DNA of 64,000 nucleotides from Peristeroidobacter agariperforans (GTDB lineage: Bacteria > Pseudomonadota > Gammaproteobacteria > Steroidobacterales > Steroidobacteraceae). The stretch covers positions 372,001-436,000 of the forward strand of contig NZ_RYFW01000001.1 of assembly GCF_004138335.1 (NCBI RefSeq). The letters run 5' to 3'. A model generated the notes under the pieces. The model saw only the letters and a program-made list of their open reading frames with translations. It did not search any database and was not told the origin of the DNA. Positions within the stretch are counted from its first letter, which is position 1; the number at the start of each line of letters is the position of its first letter. The translations under genes were made by a program, and so were the position numbers. This document shows positions 30,289 to 37,415 of this stretch, piece after piece.

Positions 30289-30336
30289 CTCCTGCGCTTC
30301 GCCTTCGAAGCGCACTTTCCATGAGGAATGGCATCG

Positions 30337-30594
30337 ATGACCCACGGCAAGAAACTTTCCACGCTCGCTCTGGCCACCGCGGCCGCGGTGATGTTCAGCA
30401 GCGCGCCGCTGACCGCTGCCAATGCGGCCGATGAAGCCAAGGTGAAATGCGAAGGCGTGAACGCGTGCAAAGGCACCAGCGCCTGCGGCACGGCGGCCAA
30501 TGCCTGCGCCGGCAAGAACGCCTGCAAAGGTCAGGGCTTCCTGATGCTGAGCAAGGCTGAATGCGACGCCGCCAAGGCCAAGCTGAAGAAATAA
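30337..30594 (+). CDS. bufA: bufferin-like RiPP precursor (Cys-rich exported peptide)
   Basis: 85 aa from ATG 30337, with GAGGA 9 bases upstream (ATG 30328 is too close to it). The first 30 residues or so are a Sec signal peptide ending SSAPLTAANAADEA. The mature part carries six Cys in a recurrent N/S-A-C-K/A/G-G pattern: KCEGVNACKG, SACG, NACAG, NACKG, AECDA. This matches precursors that accompany DUF692/MNIO enzymes, of the type I associate with BufA2. By family knowledge the Cys residues are modified to copper-binding heterocycles and the peptide works as a periplasmic copper sponge. The next two genes are the expected enzyme pair. Confidence 0.82.
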   Translation: MTHGKKLSTLALATAAAVMFSSAPLTAANAADEAKVKCEGVNACKGTSACGTAANACAGKNACKGQGFLMLSKAECDAAKAKLKK

Positions 30595-30627
30595 TTCAGC
30601 TCCAGGCCCGGTCTGATAGGGTCAGGG

Positions 30628-30657
30628 CGGCGCGGTCTTCCGTCAGCGGCCGCGCCG
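30628..30657 (+). terminator. stem-loop between precursor and enzyme genes
   Basis: CGGCGCGG and CCGCGCCG (8 bp) enclose a 14-base loop and are followed by TTTCC. It lies 34 bases after the precursor stop and 27 before the MNIO start. It could be a leaky terminator that keeps precursor mRNA more abundant than enzyme mRNA. Confidence 0.45.
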
Positions 30658-30683
30658 TTTCCTGATCAGTCCACGAGTGTTCA

Positions 30684-31535
30684 GTGTCCCAATCGTCCCC
30701 TCATCCCTCACTAGGCTTCGGGCTCGGCGTCCGACCCACTCATTACGACGCACTGCTCGGCGAGCGCCGGGGCAGCGTCAGCTGGCTGGAAGCGCTGACC
30801 GAGAACTACCTGCTCCCTGGCGGCAAGCCGCTGCACTATCTGGAACGGCTGCGCGCCGATTATCCGATCGTGCTGCACGGAGTGTCGCTGTCCATCGGCA
30901 GCACCGACCCGCTGAATGAAACGTATCTGCGCGAGGTGAAAGCGCTCGCGGACCGAGTCGAGCCGGCGTGGGTCTCGGATCATCTGTGCTGGACTGGCGT
31001 CGATGGCGTGAACCTGCACGATCTGATGCCGATGCCCTTTACCGAAACCGCGCTGAGACATGTCGTGTCGCGCATCGCGGCCGTTCAGGAGCGGCTCGGC
31101 CGTCGGCTGGTGCTGGAAAACGTATCGAGCTATGTGAGCTTCACCCGCTGCGACATGACGGAATGGGAGTTCCTGCGCGAGATCGCCGAGCGCGCCGACT
31201 GTCACTTACTGCTCGACGTGAACAACGTGTACGTGAGCAGTGTGAATCATGGTTTCGATCCGCTGGCCTACCTGCGAGGCATCCCAGCGGAGCGGGTTCA
31301 ACAGTTCCATCTCGCCGGCCATCGGAACATGGGCAACTATCTCATCGACACGCACGACGAGCCGGTCTGCGAATCGGTGTGGCGCCTGTTTCATGCGGCG
31401 GTCGAGCGCTTCGGCGCGCTCTCGACCATGATCGAGCGCGACGACAACATTCCCGAGCTCGATGTGCTGCTAGCGGAACTGGACCGCGCGCGCGATATCA
31501 CTACGTCGGCGCAACGAGCGAAGTCCGCGGCATGA
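30684..31535 (+). CDS. bufB: MNIO-family (DUF692) peptide-modifying enzyme
   Basis: 283 aa, start GTG 30684. A TIM-barrel iron enzyme of the multinuclear non-haem iron oxidative family. Likely metal ligands are in ALTENY, VLHGVSLSIGS, VSDHLCW, LENVSSY, LLLDVNNVYV, HLAGH and IERDDNIP, all conserved blocks of DUF692. Family members oxidise Cys residues of bufferin precursors. It sits between the precursor and the DUF2063 partner; its stop overlaps the partner start (ATGA at 31532). This is the catalytic gene of the operon. Confidence 0.9.
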   Translation: MSQSSPHPSLGFGLGVRPTHYDALLGERRGSVSWLEALTENYLLPGGKPLHYLERLRADYPIVLHGVSLSIGSTDPLNETYLREVKALADRVEPAWVSDHLCWTGVDGVNLHDLMPMPFTETALRHVVSRIAAVQERLGRRLVLENVSSYVSFTRCDMTEWEFLREIAERADCHLLLDVNNVYVSSVNHGFDPLAYLRGIPAERVQQFHLAGHRNMGNYLIDTHDEPVCESVWRLFHAAVERFGALSTMIERDDNIPELDVLLAELDRARDITTSAQRAKSAA

Positions 31536-32320
31536 GCGCCCAACTCGACACGACCGAGCTGGCTGAGTTGCAGCGGGACTTTCAACGGCTCGTCATGCAC
31601 GGCCACGAGCGCATCGTCACTGCGGTCGAGGGCTCGCCAGAGGTCCCTGCGACCTTGCGACTGGCAATTTATTCCGAAGCGTATCGGCTGCGTTTGACCG
31701 AAGCGCTCGCCAGCACGCTGCCTCGCCTGCAAGCGTTGCTGGGCAAAGAACAATTCGCCGAACTCGCGCGCGAATACATCGACCTGTCCCCGTCGCGCTA
31801 TCCGTCGATCCGCTGGTTCGGCGATCGCATGCCGGGGCTTTTGTGCAAGTCGTTCCCCGACCAACCGTGGCTCGCCGAGCTGGCGACATGGGAATGGTCG
31901 GTCGCGACCGCCTTCGACGGCGCCGATGCCGAACCGGTCGGCATCGATGCCTTGGCTGCGATCGCGCCCGAGCAATGGCCGACTCTGACGTTTCAATTTC
32001 ATCCGACGGTGCAGGTGCTGGCGATGCGCACCAATGCGCCGGTGATATTCAAGGCGCTGTCGGCAGATGACTCGCCGCCCGAGTGCGTCGAGCTGAGTGA
32101 AGCGCAGTCCTGGCTGATCTGGCGCGAGGGACTGAAAACTCAGTACCGCTCGCTCGGCCCCGATGAGGTCGCGGCACTGGCAGTCATGCGCGACGGCGGC
32201 TCCTTCGAAATGCTCTGCGACGCGCTGTGTGGCTGGCATGACGCCGATGCCGTGCCGGTACAGGCGGCGGGCTTGCTCAAGCGCTGGGTGGTGGAGCAAA
32301 TGATCGTCGGAGTATCCTAG
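31532..32320 (+). CDS. bufC: DUF2063 partner protein of the MNIO enzyme
   Basis: 262 aa from ATG 31532, overlapping the DUF692 stop by 4 bases. The N-terminal DUF2063 domain is clear (LQRDFQRLVMH, LRLAIYSEAYRLRLTEALASTLPRLQALLG, SPSRYPSIRWFGDRMP). It is followed by a wHTH-like C-terminal region (about 130-262). In bufferin systems this protein brings the precursor to the MNIO enzyme. The long open frame upstream of 31532 is an out-of-phase shadow of bufB. Confidence 0.87.
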   Translation: MSAQLDTTELAELQRDFQRLVMHGHERIVTAVEGSPEVPATLRLAIYSEAYRLRLTEALASTLPRLQALLGKEQFAELAREYIDLSPSRYPSIRWFGDRMPGLLCKSFPDQPWLAELATWEWSVATAFDGADAEPVGIDALAAIAPEQWPTLTFQFHPTVQVLAMRTNAPVIFKALSADDSPPECVELSEAQSWLIWREGLKTQYRSLGPDEVAALAVMRDGGSFEMLCDALCGWHDADAVPVQAAGLLKRWVVEQMIVGVS

Positions 32321-33686: not shown

Positions 33687-34487
33687 ATGAAACCAGCGGG
33701 AAGTTTGGTGTGCGTCGGGATCGGGATGACCCTGGGAGCGCACCTCACGCCGTTGGCGCGCGATTACATCCACAACGCCGATGTGGTGTTCACCGGGCTG
33801 TCGGACGGCATCGTCGAAATGTGGGTGGCCCGAATGAACCGCGACGTGCGCAGCCTGCAGTCGTTGTATCAGGAGGGGAAGTCACGCATGCAGACCTACC
33901 GCGAAATGGTGGAAACCATGCTGACCGAGGTGCGTGCAGGCAAACGCGTCTGTGCCGCCTTCTACGGCCACCCCGGCGTATTCGCCTGGCCCACCCACAA
34001 AGCCATCGAGACCGCGCGTAGCGAAGGTTATGAAGCGCACATGGAGCCGGGCGTCTCGGCGGCGGATTGTATGTATGCCGACCTGGGCTTCGATCCCGGC
34101 AAATATGGCTGCCAGCACTACGAAGCCAGCCAGTTCATGTTCAACCGGCGTCGCCTGGACACGGCCGCCTACCTGATCCTGTGGCAGGTGGGGCTGTCGG
34201 GCGACCAGTCGTTCGCACGCTTTGCCACCGGCGCCGCTTACCGGCAGGTGCTGGTCGATGTGTTGAGCCGCGACTATCCGCTCGATCATGAAGTGATCTT
34301 GTATCGAGCAGCGACGCTGCCCACCTTTCGCCCCAAGATCATTCGCGTGCCGCTGGCCCAGCTGCCCACTGCCGAGGCGGACATGCACTTCACGCTGGTG
34401 GTTCCACCGGCGCAACCGCTGCAACCCGATCATCACATCCGTGAGCGCCTGTCCGCGCTCGATCGCGAACTGACGCCCCAAGGCTGA
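33687..34487 (+). CDS. borosin-type peptide alpha-N-methyltransferase (SonM-like, tetrapyrrole methylase fold)
   Basis: 266 aa. It opens GSLVCVGIGMTLGAHLTPLARDY and has the SAM-binding FYGHPGVFAWP (92-102) and EPGVSAADCMYADLG of the tetrapyrrole-methylase fold, but none of the genes around make corrins or haem. Length and blocks (RSLQSLYQEGKSRMQTYREMV, GCQHYEASQFMF, LILWQVGLSGDQSF, YPLDHEVILY) match what I remember of SonM from Shewanella, the stand-alone enzyme that methylates backbone amides of a separate precursor. Tyr61, Arg67, Tyr71 and Tyr93 fall at or near the positions reported as important there. A GNAT gene starts 7 bases later and a SonA-like peptide gene lies 0.8 kb downstream. 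Confidence 0.8.
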   Translation: MKPAGSLVCVGIGMTLGAHLTPLARDYIHNADVVFTGLSDGIVEMWVARMNRDVRSLQSLYQEGKSRMQTYREMVETMLTEVRAGKRVCAAFYGHPGVFAWPTHKAIETARSEGYEAHMEPGVSAADCMYADLGFDPGKYGCQHYEASQFMFNRRRLDTAAYLILWQVGLSGDQSFARFATGAAYRQVLVDVLSRDYPLDHEVILYRAATLPTFRPKIIRVPLAQLPTAEADMHFTLVVPPAQPLQPDHHIRERLSALDRELTPQG

Positions 34488-34493
34488 GCACCG

Positions 34494-35072
34494 GTGCACG
34501 TGTTTCCAGTCGAGACGGAACGGCTGCGCATGCGCCCATTGGCCGCTGCCGACGCGGCGCTCTATGAACATCTGTATACGGACGCGGAGACCATGCGCTT
34601 CATTGGCGCGCCCCTCGCCCCCGAGCGCGCCGCCAAGAGCTTTCGAATCGCGCTCGACGGCATGCAGCGCCGGCCCATCGAACGGCTGTTCCTAACCGTG
34701 CAGGAGAAGTCGTCGCACAGCGATGTAGGCATCTGCAGCCTGCAGAACTTCGACGCCGTGAACCGCAGCGTTCAGGCCGGTGTGATGTTCATCGAGTCGG
34801 CGCGCGCCAAAGGTTATGCCAAGGAAGCTTTTATCGGGCTCATCCAGCAAGTGTTCGCACATCTGCCGGTGGATGAGCTGTGGGTGGAGTTCGCCGTGGA
34901 CCATGTAGCTGTGCAGCGGGGTGTGCTTAGCGTAGGCTTTGCACGCCGCGGCAGTGCCGCTGCGGCGGACGGAGCTTGTCAAAGGAATGACCAAGACGAT
35001 GGGCAAGGAAATGCCTGGTCGGTGCGTCGTGACTCATGGTCGCCGCCATCCACCTTCCGCAACGTGCGCTAG
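34494..35072 (+). CDS. GNAT-family N-acetyltransferase
   Basis: 192 aa from GTG 34494, 7 bases after the methyltransferase stop. The GNAT fold begins ETERLRMRPLAAADAALYEHL; the acetyl-CoA region is around MFIESARAKGYAKEAFIGLIQQVF, where the usual Q/RxxGxG/A loop is reduced to ARAKGYA. The C-terminal part (after about 145) is polar and less typical, but the frame ends WSVRRDSW, a common GNAT ending, so I do not call a frameshift. The tight spacing suggests it could act with the methyltransferase, for example on the precursor N-terminus or a lysine; that is only inference. Confidence 0.75.
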   Translation: MHVFPVETERLRMRPLAAADAALYEHLYTDAETMRFIGAPLAPERAAKSFRIALDGMQRRPIERLFLTVQEKSSHSDVGICSLQNFDAVNRSVQAGVMFIESARAKGYAKEAFIGLIQQVFAHLPVDELWVEFAVDHVAVQRGVLSVGFARRGSAAAADGACQRNDQDDGQGNAWSVRRDSWSPPSTFRNVR

Positions 35073-35320
35073 GCACGCCCGGCGAATCCCGACTCGCCCC
35101 TCGCCGTCGGCTTCCGGCCATTCTTGTACCGTCTGTTGGCTTGGAAACAGGCATAATTCATTCTGTTAAGTCGGGGCCTCGTGGCCTGCCGGCGCCGTTA
35201 ATTTTTTCTGTGGAGCGTTCGAGAGCCGGCCGGCCGCGATTGTCCTAGGCTTGTCACAACCCAAGCTGCACGAGGCAGCACGTCGTTCAACAACAATTTG
35301 GGGGATAGGAGGAGCGCATC

Positions 35321-35590
35321 GTGTCGAATGTCGTGGATCTGTTGGAAAGAATTGGTCGTAGCTCGCGGCTGCAGTCGCTGACCGGCGAGCAACTGGCGCA
35401 GGAGCTGGCGCAGGCGGGCTTCGAGCCGGCCGTGCAGGCAGCCATCGTGCAGCAGCGCCCGGGTCAGCTCGAGGAGCTGATGGGCGCCAGCAAGAACGTC
35501 TGCTGTATGGTCCACGCGCCGCAAGACGAAGAGCCCGAAGAGCAGCAGCCCAAAGACGGTGGCGAGCGCCGTGTCGCCCGCGCCAGCTGA
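35321..35590 (+). CDS. candidate split-borosin precursor peptide (SonA-like)
   Basis: 89 aa from GTG 35321, preceded by AGGAGG at 8 bases. Residues 4-55 form a helical domain (VVDLLERIGRSSRLQSL, then EQLAQELAQAG, PAVQAAIVQQ, LEELMG) with the order and spacing of the SonA binding domain as I remember it. A short non-helical stretch follows, ASKNVCCMVHAPQDE (56-70), where SonA has its methylated segment, and then an acidic and basic tail to 89. The core is unusual in holding a Cys-Cys pair. The gene lies 0.8 kb after the SonM-like enzyme and its 3' end overlaps the diguanylate cyclase gene. Confidence 0.7.
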   Translation: MSNVVDLLERIGRSSRLQSLTGEQLAQELAQAGFEPAVQAAIVQQRPGQLEELMGASKNVCCMVHAPQDEEPEEQQPKDGGERRVARAS

Positions 35591-37415
35591 GCAAGCACCT
35601 ATTCGCAACGATTCCGTCCGGCACTGGCTGCTGGGCGGAATCGCCTGCCTGTGCCTGTTCGCTGGCGGGCCGTTGCTGGCGGCGGACGGCGAGGACTTCG
35701 CCGCCATGTTGCAACGGGCTGACGCGGTCAAAACCGTCGACCCCGCCGAGTTCACCCGGCTGATCGATCAACTGCACGCCCAGCTCGACAATCTCTCCGG
35801 CCAGCAACGCGAGCATCTCCAATATCTGCAGGGCTGGCGTCTGGCATACGCCGGCGAGTACGCAGCCGCGATTCCCATGCTGGAGTCGCTGGCCGACAAG
35901 GCGAGCGACCCGACGATCCAGTTCCGCGCCAGCGTGACCGCCACGAACGTGCAAATGCTGGCGACGCGCTACGAAGGGGCGTTCCTGCAACTCAACAAAC
36001 TGTTGAACAAACTGCCCGAGGTCACCGACAAGGACGCCCGGCTGCAGGGCATGTCGGTCGCGGCCGATCTCTACGTCCTGGTCGGCGAATACGACCTGGG
36101 CATTCACTACGCCGAACGGGTTGCCGAAGAGAACGCCCGTGGCCGTGGCATCTGCCGAGGCGAGCAGATCCGCCTCGATGCCCTGTGCAAGACCAAGCGG
36201 ATCACGGCCGACGATCCCGCCCTGCCCGCCGCCATCGACGCCTGCCTGCGGCAGGGTGAATCGATGGCCGCGAACGGCATCCGCTCCACCCAAGCTCGTT
36301 TGTTTTTACGCGAGAATCGCGTCGACGAGGCCATCAACCTGCTCGAGCGGTACTATAGCGAGGTGGAGCAAACGCGCTATCCACGCGGCATCTCGGAGTG
36401 GGAATCGTTGATGGCGCAGGCTTATCAGCGGCGCGGCGCCGGGGTGAACGCTCAGCGCATGGCGTTGCGCGCCGCCGAGCACAGCGTGAAGAATCAATTT
36501 ACCCTGCCGCTGGTCGGCGCCTACCGCGTGCTCTACGAAGAGACCGAGAAACAAGGCGACATCAGCAGCGCCATCGCCTACCTGAAGAAATCCGCCGCCG
36601 CCGACAAGGCTTATCTCGATGACGTAACCGCTCGCCAGCTGGCCTACGAGCGCGTCAAATCGAACACCCTGTCCACCAAATCGCAGCTGGAAGCGCTCAA
36701 CCAGGAGAACAAACTGCTGCAGCTCCAGCGCGAGCTGGACGGCAAGGCTGCCGAGACCAGCCGCCTGTACATCGCGCTGTTGCTGCTGGTGCTGGTGTTC
36801 ATCGCACTGTGGGCCTATCGGACCAAGCGCTCACAGCTGCATTTCATGAAACTGTCACAGGTGGACAGCCTGACCGGGATCGCCAACCGTCCGCGCTTCA
36901 TTCAACTTGCCGAAGCCGTGCTCGAAGCGGCGCGCAAATCGCAACAGCAGGCCAGCGTCGTCCTGTGCGACCTGGATCATTTCAAATCCATCAACGATCG
37001 CTTCGGCCACGCCGCGGGCGATCATGTTCTGCGCCAGGCTGTCCTCGCCTGCCAGGGTCATCTGCGGGTCAGTGACATTTTCGGACGCGTCGGCGGCGAA
37101 GAGTTTGGCATCGTGCTGCCGGGCTGCGGCCTGGAGGACGCGATACAACGCGCCGAGCGCCTGCGAATCGCGCTGAACGCCATCGAGCCCCAATACGACG
37201 GCGAGCGTTGCCTGGTGTCCGGCAGCTTCGGTGTCACATCGACCGAACAGTCCGGCTACGAGCTGCGTCAGCTGCTGGCGCACGCGGACGCGGCGCTGTA
37301 TCGAGCCAAAGACGCCGGTCGCGATCGCGTCATGCCCTACGACGGCAAAACGGTCGACGCAGCGCGCCCCGATCCGGTCGACGACAACGAGCTGCGTAAC
37401 GTCGGCCACGCCTAG
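35559..37415 (+). CDS. TPR-sensor diguanylate cyclase (GGDEF)
   Basis: Up to 618 aa; GTG 35559 lies inside the 3' end of the peptide gene, and GTG 35571 is an equally weak alternative. Order: signal segment (HWLLGGIACLCLFAGGPLLAA), a periplasmic helical region of TPR type (about 45-395), a membrane helix (RLYIALLLLVLVFIALWAY), and a GGDEF domain. The active site is GGEEF, and RVSD five residues before it is the RxxD inhibitory site. It should make c-di-GMP with product feedback. The overlap with the borosin-like peptide gene suggests coupled expression. Confidence 0.85.
   Translation: MASAVSPAPAEQAPIRNDSVRHWLLGGIACLCLFAGGPLLAADGEDFAAMLQRADAVKTVDPAEFTRLIDQLHAQLDNLSGQQREHLQYLQGWRLAYAGEYAAAIPMLESLADKASDPTIQFRASVTATNVQMLATRYEGAFLQLNKLLNKLPEVTDKDARLQGMSVAADLYVLVGEYDLGIHYAERVAEENARGRGICRGEQIRLDALCKTKRITADDPALPAAIDACLRQGESMAANGIRSTQARLFLRENRVDEAINLLERYYSEVEQTRYPRGISEWESLMAQAYQRRGAGVNAQRMALRAAEHSVKNQFTLPLVGAYRVLYEETEKQGDISSAIAYLKKSAAADKAYLDDVTARQLAYERVKSNTLSTKSQLEALNQENKLLQLQRELDGKAAETSRLYIALLLLVLVFIALWAYRTKRSQLHFMKLSQVDSLTGIANRPRFIQLAEAVLEAARKSQQQASVVLCDLDHFKSINDRFGHAAGDHVLRQAVLACQGHLRVSDIFGRVGGEEFGIVLPGCGLEDAIQRAERLRIALNAIEPQYDGERCLVSGSFGVTSTEQSGYELRQLLAHADAALYRAKDAGRDRVMPYDGKTVDAARPDPVDDNELRNVGHA

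Follow-up and report, generated by a model that had tools for sequence, protein, structure and literature searches.

The window, that is, the whole stretch of 64,000 nucleotides of Peristeroidobacter agariperforans DNA analysed here, carries a locus that we place among the split borosins as a new member; its precursor has a Cys-Cys core and an acidic tail, and a GNAT acetyltransferase accompanies it. We regard the assignment as a split borosin as nearly certain. Further, we found that the SonM branch of these systems, including close relatives of SonM/SonA, has a near-exclusive presumed TPR receptor, and that a pepsin-type protease accompanies the GNAT subclass. The methylated core may be the ligand of the neighbouring TPR receptor in a form of peptide signalling, a reading to which we give a probability of roughly 0.5 to 0.6. 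Papers are cited below for the parts of their text that were available.

Organization of the locus

Four genes on the + strand, encoding a methyltransferase, a GNAT protein, an 89-aa peptide and a TPR-membrane-GGDEF protein, form one unit (nine neighbour proteins were scanned around the locus). The features, in positions of the window, are as follows.

33687..34487, +, SonM-like backbone alpha-N-methyltransferase, 266 aa (ATG start; phmmer match to SonM and residues)
34494..35072, +, GNAT acetyltransferase, 192 aa, accessory gene of this core class (GTG start; Acetyltransf_3, E 1.6e-19)
35307..35312, +, AGGAGG ribosome-binding site of the precursor gene (read directly; 8 bases before the start)
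35321..35590, +, SonA-like borosin precursor, 89 aa (GTG start; family profile, relatives beside the enzyme)
35321..35485, +, borosin binding domain (leader), residues 1-55 (five predicted helices; Foldseek matches to SonA chains with weak E)
35486..35536, +, presumed core, residues 56-72, with NVCCMVHAPQD at 59-69 (SonA register; strongest purifying selection of the gene)
35559..37415, +, TPR-membrane-GGDEF protein, 618 aa, presumed receptor (GGDEF, E 4.2e-42; model pLDDT 90.9; sensor family)
35685..36758, +, predicted periplasmic TPR sensor, residues 43-400, with invariant Cys199 and Cys229 (hydrophobic segments; alignment)
36858..37328, +, GGDEF domain, residues 434-590, with the active motif GGEEF and RVSD (RxxD) before it (domain match, motif)

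The preliminary description of this DNA had named a 266-aa enzyme and, downstream, an 89-aa gene with a strong ribosome site and NVCCMVHAPQD in its C-terminal segment, all of which we recovered: 834 bases lie between the enzyme and the 89-aa gene, AGGAGG precedes the GTG start of the latter, and the motif corresponds to residues 59-69 of the peptide. It had missed the next gene, that of the TPR-membrane-GGDEF protein, which belongs to the system and overlaps the precursor gene by 32 bases. A frameshift behind the odd C-terminus of the GNAT protein was rejected, as the protein aligns in frame with relatives sharing that C-terminus. Just upstream, at 30328-32320, lies a second RiPP-like unit with an 88-aa Cys-containing peptide that has a signal-like start, an MbnB/TglH/ChrH-type enzyme (E 6.3e-110) and a DUF2063 protein; the same unit is present in four related loci (L016-L019) and presumably resembles bufferin clusters.

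Related loci were compared in three sets, and since loci share ancestry, all locus counts below are to be read with that in mind. Set A comprises the window and 80 of 85 confirmed related loci. Set B comprises 90 loci, among the matches listed, from 247 genomes of the order of genome G404 and 19 of the order of genome G344; it leaves out G404 and G344 themselves, which are both in set C, and close neighbours share one locus. Set C comprises 14 loci, nine from a class-wide sample, in which the enzyme was matched in 10 of 369 genomes (the window's genome included), and five from close relatives.

Identity of the methyltransferase

When the enzyme was searched against solved structures with phmmer, its best match was SonM (7ltc_A, E 8.6e-74, 251.8 bits, residues 5-255), followed by the fungal borosin enzymes dbOphM, OphM and MroM at 1e-46 to 1e-50, and not by proteins of the CobA, CysG or RsmI type. 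The SonM residues Y58, R67, Y71, Y93, F99, W166 and Q167, which are discussed in PMC8429565, correspond to Y61, R67, Y71, Y93, F99, W166 and Q167 of the enzyme, and each of the seven is conserved in 194-197 of the 197 enzymes aligned. A precursor gene was found by profile in 78/81 loci of set A, 83/90 of set B and 6/14 of set C, and by eye a short ORF occupies the precursor slot in L086, L203, L205, L207 and L246. The fold is shared with corrin and sirohaem methylases, so that the enzyme might be one of these and the peptide gene unrelated to it; a TP_methylase Pfam match and weak CobJ, CysG, CobI, CobM and CbiE matches would agree with such an identity. The NCBIfam corrin and sirohaem models, however, gave only 14-22 bits against cut-offs of 93-400 (best 22.1 against 246) and the YabN model 48.6 bits against 525, compared with 251.8 bits for SonM, and the precursor neighbours are conserved. 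Therefore, the corrin or sirohaem methylase was rejected and has practically no chance of being right. The borosin pathway proposed in the preliminary description is thus supported by a SonM-like enzyme with its catalytic residues and a precursor with the leader domain of SonA.

The window's own genus also has two divergent, long-branched enzyme relatives, L109 and L118, near which neither a precursor nor a receptor was found (the L118 contig is short). On a Bradyrhizobium plasmid (L097), two borosin-like enzymes, a TauD dioxygenase, a leader-bearing peptide and a prolyl oligopeptidase lie together.

Precursor peptide, leader and core

The 89-aa gene is kept beside the enzyme in four close relatives (L016-L019) with 76-91% identity, and its dN/dS against these is about 0.15-0.28 over the whole gene, indicating purifying selection; therefore, it is not a chance ORF. 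In the same comparisons, the core (56-72) had a dN of 0-0.09 against a dS of 0.42-1.6, while dN was 0.056-0.153 in the leader and 0.053-0.24 in the tail.

As a single query against solved structures, the precursor gave nothing significant, and SonA was absent from its matches up to E 5. When 35 precursors of Steroidobacter- and Rhodanobacteraceae-type loci were combined into a profile that contained no Ferrimonas, Burkholderiales or SonA-like row, it matched SonA at E 1.8e-6 (next match 0.51), ungapped over residues 1-59 and with Gly55 of the precursor on Gly55 of SonA. The preliminary description had stated that the distance from the last leader helix to the core is equal in SonA, and this register agrees with it. 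Backbone methylation of SonA occurs at L63 and I65 (PMC8429565); because the alignment is ungapped over 1-59 and Gly55 matches Gly55, these positions correspond to M63 and H65 here, and methylation would be expected in a zone of about residues 60-66 (NVCCMVH). The helical leader described earlier is likewise predicted, with five helices within 2-54 (2-13, 15-19, 22-31, 36-43 and 47-54; mean pLDDT 63.4, moderate confidence). Among ten Foldseek matches of the precursor model, SonA chains ranked 1, 2, 5 and 8, all at E of at least 3.2, and one OphA was present at E 3.2 or weaker.

Some precursors have unusual forms: L119:8417-8848 and L120:5883-6314 encode 143-aa precursors with long lysine- and alanine-rich, histone-like C-terminal tails, and those at L029:9384-9701, L021:8944-9210 and L025:8947-9213 apparently have two core copies (two CC or CLLVP stretches).

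The presumed TPR receptor and its linkage to the borosin enzyme

The presumed receptor of the window has hydrophobic segments at 24-42 and 401-419, and its AlphaFold model consists of helical repeats at 47-331, a long helix at 335-433 and the GGDEF domain. Cys199 and Cys229 are invariant in 71/71 aligned GGDEF-type receptors, as would be expected for a disulphide outside the cytoplasm; by eye, the pair is missing in the kinase L108 and the TPR-only protein L268. The window protein has the GG(D/E)EF motif of active diguanylate cyclases as GGEEF, the positions of which read G 69, G 70, E 68, E 71 and F 70 in the 71-row receptor alignment. In a simple scan, 55/161 GGDEF-type receptors were without an N-terminal hydrophobic segment, and over-long ORF starts may be part of the reason. 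The best 50 matches listed in a fold search of the receptor were of GGDEF type only, with none on the TPR part, and by sequence there was no solved TPR relative at E below 0.33.

Within 3.5 kb of the enzyme and on its strand, a gene of the TPR sensor family was present in 77/81 loci of set A (it was missing from L077 and from three loci at contig ends, L036, L065 and L081), in 87/90 of set B (85 by profile and two by Pfam, the TPR kinases L255 and L269; it was missing from L196, which has two precursors, from L264, and from L199, where the sensor is on the other strand) and in 5/14 of set C. The nine set C loci without the sensor have enzymes 29-49% identical to that of the window, and they include L118 on a 4.1-kb contig and L117 with a GGDEF protein bearing another sensor; G404 (enzyme 47% identical) and G344 (44%) do carry it. 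In 132 cassettes from 127 loci, the precursor either overlapped a following sensor-GGDEF gene or was at most 250 bases away from it. The gene order varies, with the enzyme first or as precursor-receptor-enzyme, and the precursor-then-receptor order is kept in most loci; some loci of family f201 (L232, L239, L241) have the order precursor, enzyme, TPR protein. In this branch, the gene immediately after the peptide gene thus almost always encodes a membrane signalling protein, which suggests that the peptide serves as a signal and not as a free-standing product.

The output domain is replaced while the TPR part is kept. In set A the outputs were GGDEF (74), GGDEF and TPR-only (2) and TPR-only (1), and in set B they were GGDEF (56), histidine kinase (13, plus L255 and L269) and TPR-only (16), the last including L234, where the GGDEF gene is split in two, and L259, where a contig end truncates the kinase. 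The receptor kinases of the relatives are hybrid or plain histidine kinases, and L110 has a TPR kinase plus a TPR-GGDEF protein. In one family (L214, L217, L218, L232, L239, L241 and L253), the place of a cyclase or kinase beside the enzyme is taken by tandem arrays of two to four TPR-only proteins with signal-like starts.

The co-occurrence of sensor and enzyme is near-exclusive. The window's genome has 39 GGDEF genes; among the 30 examined, the borosin-linked one matched the sensor profile at 9e-140, another at 3.5e-7, and 28 had no sensor match. The sensor was found in 11/60 relatives (the window's genome included): 9/9 relatives with an enzyme at least 65% identical have it, five with a distant enzyme are without it, and in two sensor-only genomes the end of the contig is no more than about 1.0 and 0.4 kb away from it. 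A query with the L221 sensor, which misses most distant sensors and for which up to 8 first-look candidates per genome were scored, found the sensor in 26/61 genomes with the enzyme and 0/186 without it among the 247 genomes of G404's order, and, among the same candidates, 26/27 sensor places were within 2.2 kb of the enzyme (exception: G465 contig 17).

The GNAT subclass and its pepsin-type protease

A gene of the window's GNAT family within 4.5 kb of the enzyme, on either side, was present in 15/81 loci of set A and 26/90 of set B. Among the 161 loci with a precursor, a core of the hydrophobic-P-A-E type was found in 33/38 with GNAT within 2.5 kb and in 10/123 without, for which a Fisher value is not a fair test because the core pattern was written after the precursors had been seen.

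Eleven set B loci, all with GNAT, carry an aspartyl protease gene on the same strand in the order protease-GNAT-enzyme (L184, L185, L187, L189, L191, L192, L194, L195, L196, L204 and L246). The L246 protease matches PF00026 at E 3.1e-20, and its best PDB matches are pepsins (1.4e-8); both D-T/S-G motifs are kept in 9/11 proteases, L196 being a fragment and L204 being without the second motif. Among the 247 genomes of G404's order, the protease was present in 21/26 genomes with GNAT beside the borosin enzyme, at the borosin locus in 10 and elsewhere in 11, and in 0/221 other genomes (0/35 with the enzyme, 0/186 without). Therefore, we infer that the pepsin-type protease of the GNAT-bearing relatives is likely to be their leader peptidase.

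According to the available text of PMC4814920, pepsins are rare in bacteria and cytoplasmic in Shewanella, and their in vivo function was left open there. The shewasins of that paper are A1-type like the L246 protease, which has no evident signal peptide and has the DTGA second motif given for marine bacterial pepsins in the same source (PMC4814920, available in part). The likeness to shewasins A and D is by description, and the protease had no match in the window's genome and none in the set A loci.

Proposed function and alternatives

Further, we propose that the SonM-like enzyme would bind the five-helix leader and methylate backbone amides of the core at about residues 60-66, and that the GNAT protein probably acetylates the product. 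A protease would then remove the leader, probably a pepsin-type one in many GNAT-bearing relatives and another in the window's genome. The methylated core would reach the periplasm, where backbone methylation may help it to cross the membrane, and would bind the TPR domain of the downstream diguanylate cyclase, which would change the cyclic-di-GMP output. Extended to the whole SonM branch, so that its bacterial split borosins would be RiPP signals of Gram-negative bacteria, each bound by a dedicated periplasmic TPR receptor whose output (cyclic-di-GMP or histidine kinase) is exchangeable, and pepsins would be the leader peptidases of the GNAT subclass, the proposal is tentative, and we hold it at slightly under even odds.

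The borosin might instead be a cofactor or a metal or redox ligand, held by a periplasmic TPR partner that senses metal or redox state. The Cys-Cys cores with acidic tails in the window's genus would fit such a role, and the tandem TPR-only proteins of one family resemble binding proteins more than signal receptors; however, SonA-type and PGHEEDE-type cores without Cys-Cys share the same sensor family, and we consider this explanation unlikely. The pairing of receptor and precursor gene by gene, as immunity genes often are, together with the several precursors of some loci, could also point to an exported antimicrobial or similar product that the TPR protein reports or protects against (feedback or immunity). 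The output domains are regulatory rather than protective, and the 28 commonest neighbour families, some of them annotated, showed no exporter; we consider the antimicrobial very unlikely.

The covariation of cores with sensors bears on a further alternative, in which the split borosin is right but peptide and receptor make no direct contact, and the cyclase linkage reflects a common habit of operon structure. Among the 132 cassettes, the linear partial correlation of core and sensor was 0.258 against 0.17 for the GGDEF control, and within-cluster permutation reached 0.258 in 0/999; by rank the values were 0.105 against 0.131, and the control was higher in 2/4 distance bins. For the precursor in full, the correlation was 0.415 with the sensor and 0.09 with the GGDEF domain, a difference that the finer core test did not bear out. 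Core covariation thus did not set the sensor apart from the GGDEF control, and we do not count it as support for binding; this, and the nine of 14 mostly distant enzymes without a sensor, would be in keeping with an operon habit. Against it stand the near-exclusive co-occurrence of sensor and enzyme, and the linkage across several families and gene orders with outputs swapped while the TPR part is kept, and we judge it quite unlikely. We therefore prefer the methylated core as ligand of the TPR receptor.

A receptor beside the precursor offers a direct and simple test of borosin function, which covers the founding SonM/SonA type too. If true, the receptor reading links a RiPP class to cyclic-di-GMP and two-component signalling. 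The co-occurrence of pepsins with the GNAT subclass would give bacterial pepsins a testable role, their in vivo function being left open in the available part of PMC4814920.

Comparison with known systems

Type IV borosin clusters are widespread in bacteria (PMC11285071, available in part). A link to GGDEF has already been drawn in print, since GGDEF is named in the legend of the borosin-types figure of PMC11395268, as far as its text was available. In the open literature searched, we found no statement of a receptor role for a borosin, and none of borosins together with c-di-GMP or tetratricopeptide.

The nearest described system is SonM/SonA of Shewanella oneidensis, a type IV split borosin with the same enzyme fold, length and checked residues (PMC8429565, in its available part). 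Like it, the window has a separate precursor with a five-helix leader and the Gly55 register; unlike it, the window has a GNAT gene between enzyme and precursor and the core NVCCMVHAPQD with an acidic, longer tail. The preliminary description had expected core, GNAT partner and cyclase linkage all to differ from the described case, and the first two do. The cyclase linkage is no departure, because close relatives of SonM/SonA also adjoin a TPR-GGDEF gene: the L221 precursor has 8 differences from residues 1-63 of SonA as printed (87% identical over 63 residues), and a TPR-GGDEF gene lies directly after its stop. In the enzyme tree (93 of 188 enzymes, near-copies dropped), SonM groups with seven enzymes from a single genus, each of which is accompanied by the sensor.

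As to the receptor, RcbB of Vibrio vulnificus has a TPR domain followed by a GGDEF domain, like the window protein, to which we liken it by description; its TPR domain represses the cyclase and a partner relieves the repression (PMC12282931). That partner, RcbA, is a TPR protein, unlike the peptide of the window, and the word methyltransferase is absent from the available text of PMC12282931, which also cites V. parahaemolyticus cyclases with predicted periplasmic TPR domains and unknown targets. Among borosins, the fungal OphMA and dbOphMA have a homologous methyltransferase domain with core and leader fused to the enzyme, whereas the precursor of the window is separate. The RRNPP receptors of Gram-positive bacteria have TPR domains that bind small peptides. 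The likeness of the window's receptor to them is by description, and RRNPP receptors are cytoplasmic, unlike its predicted periplasmic TPR domain.
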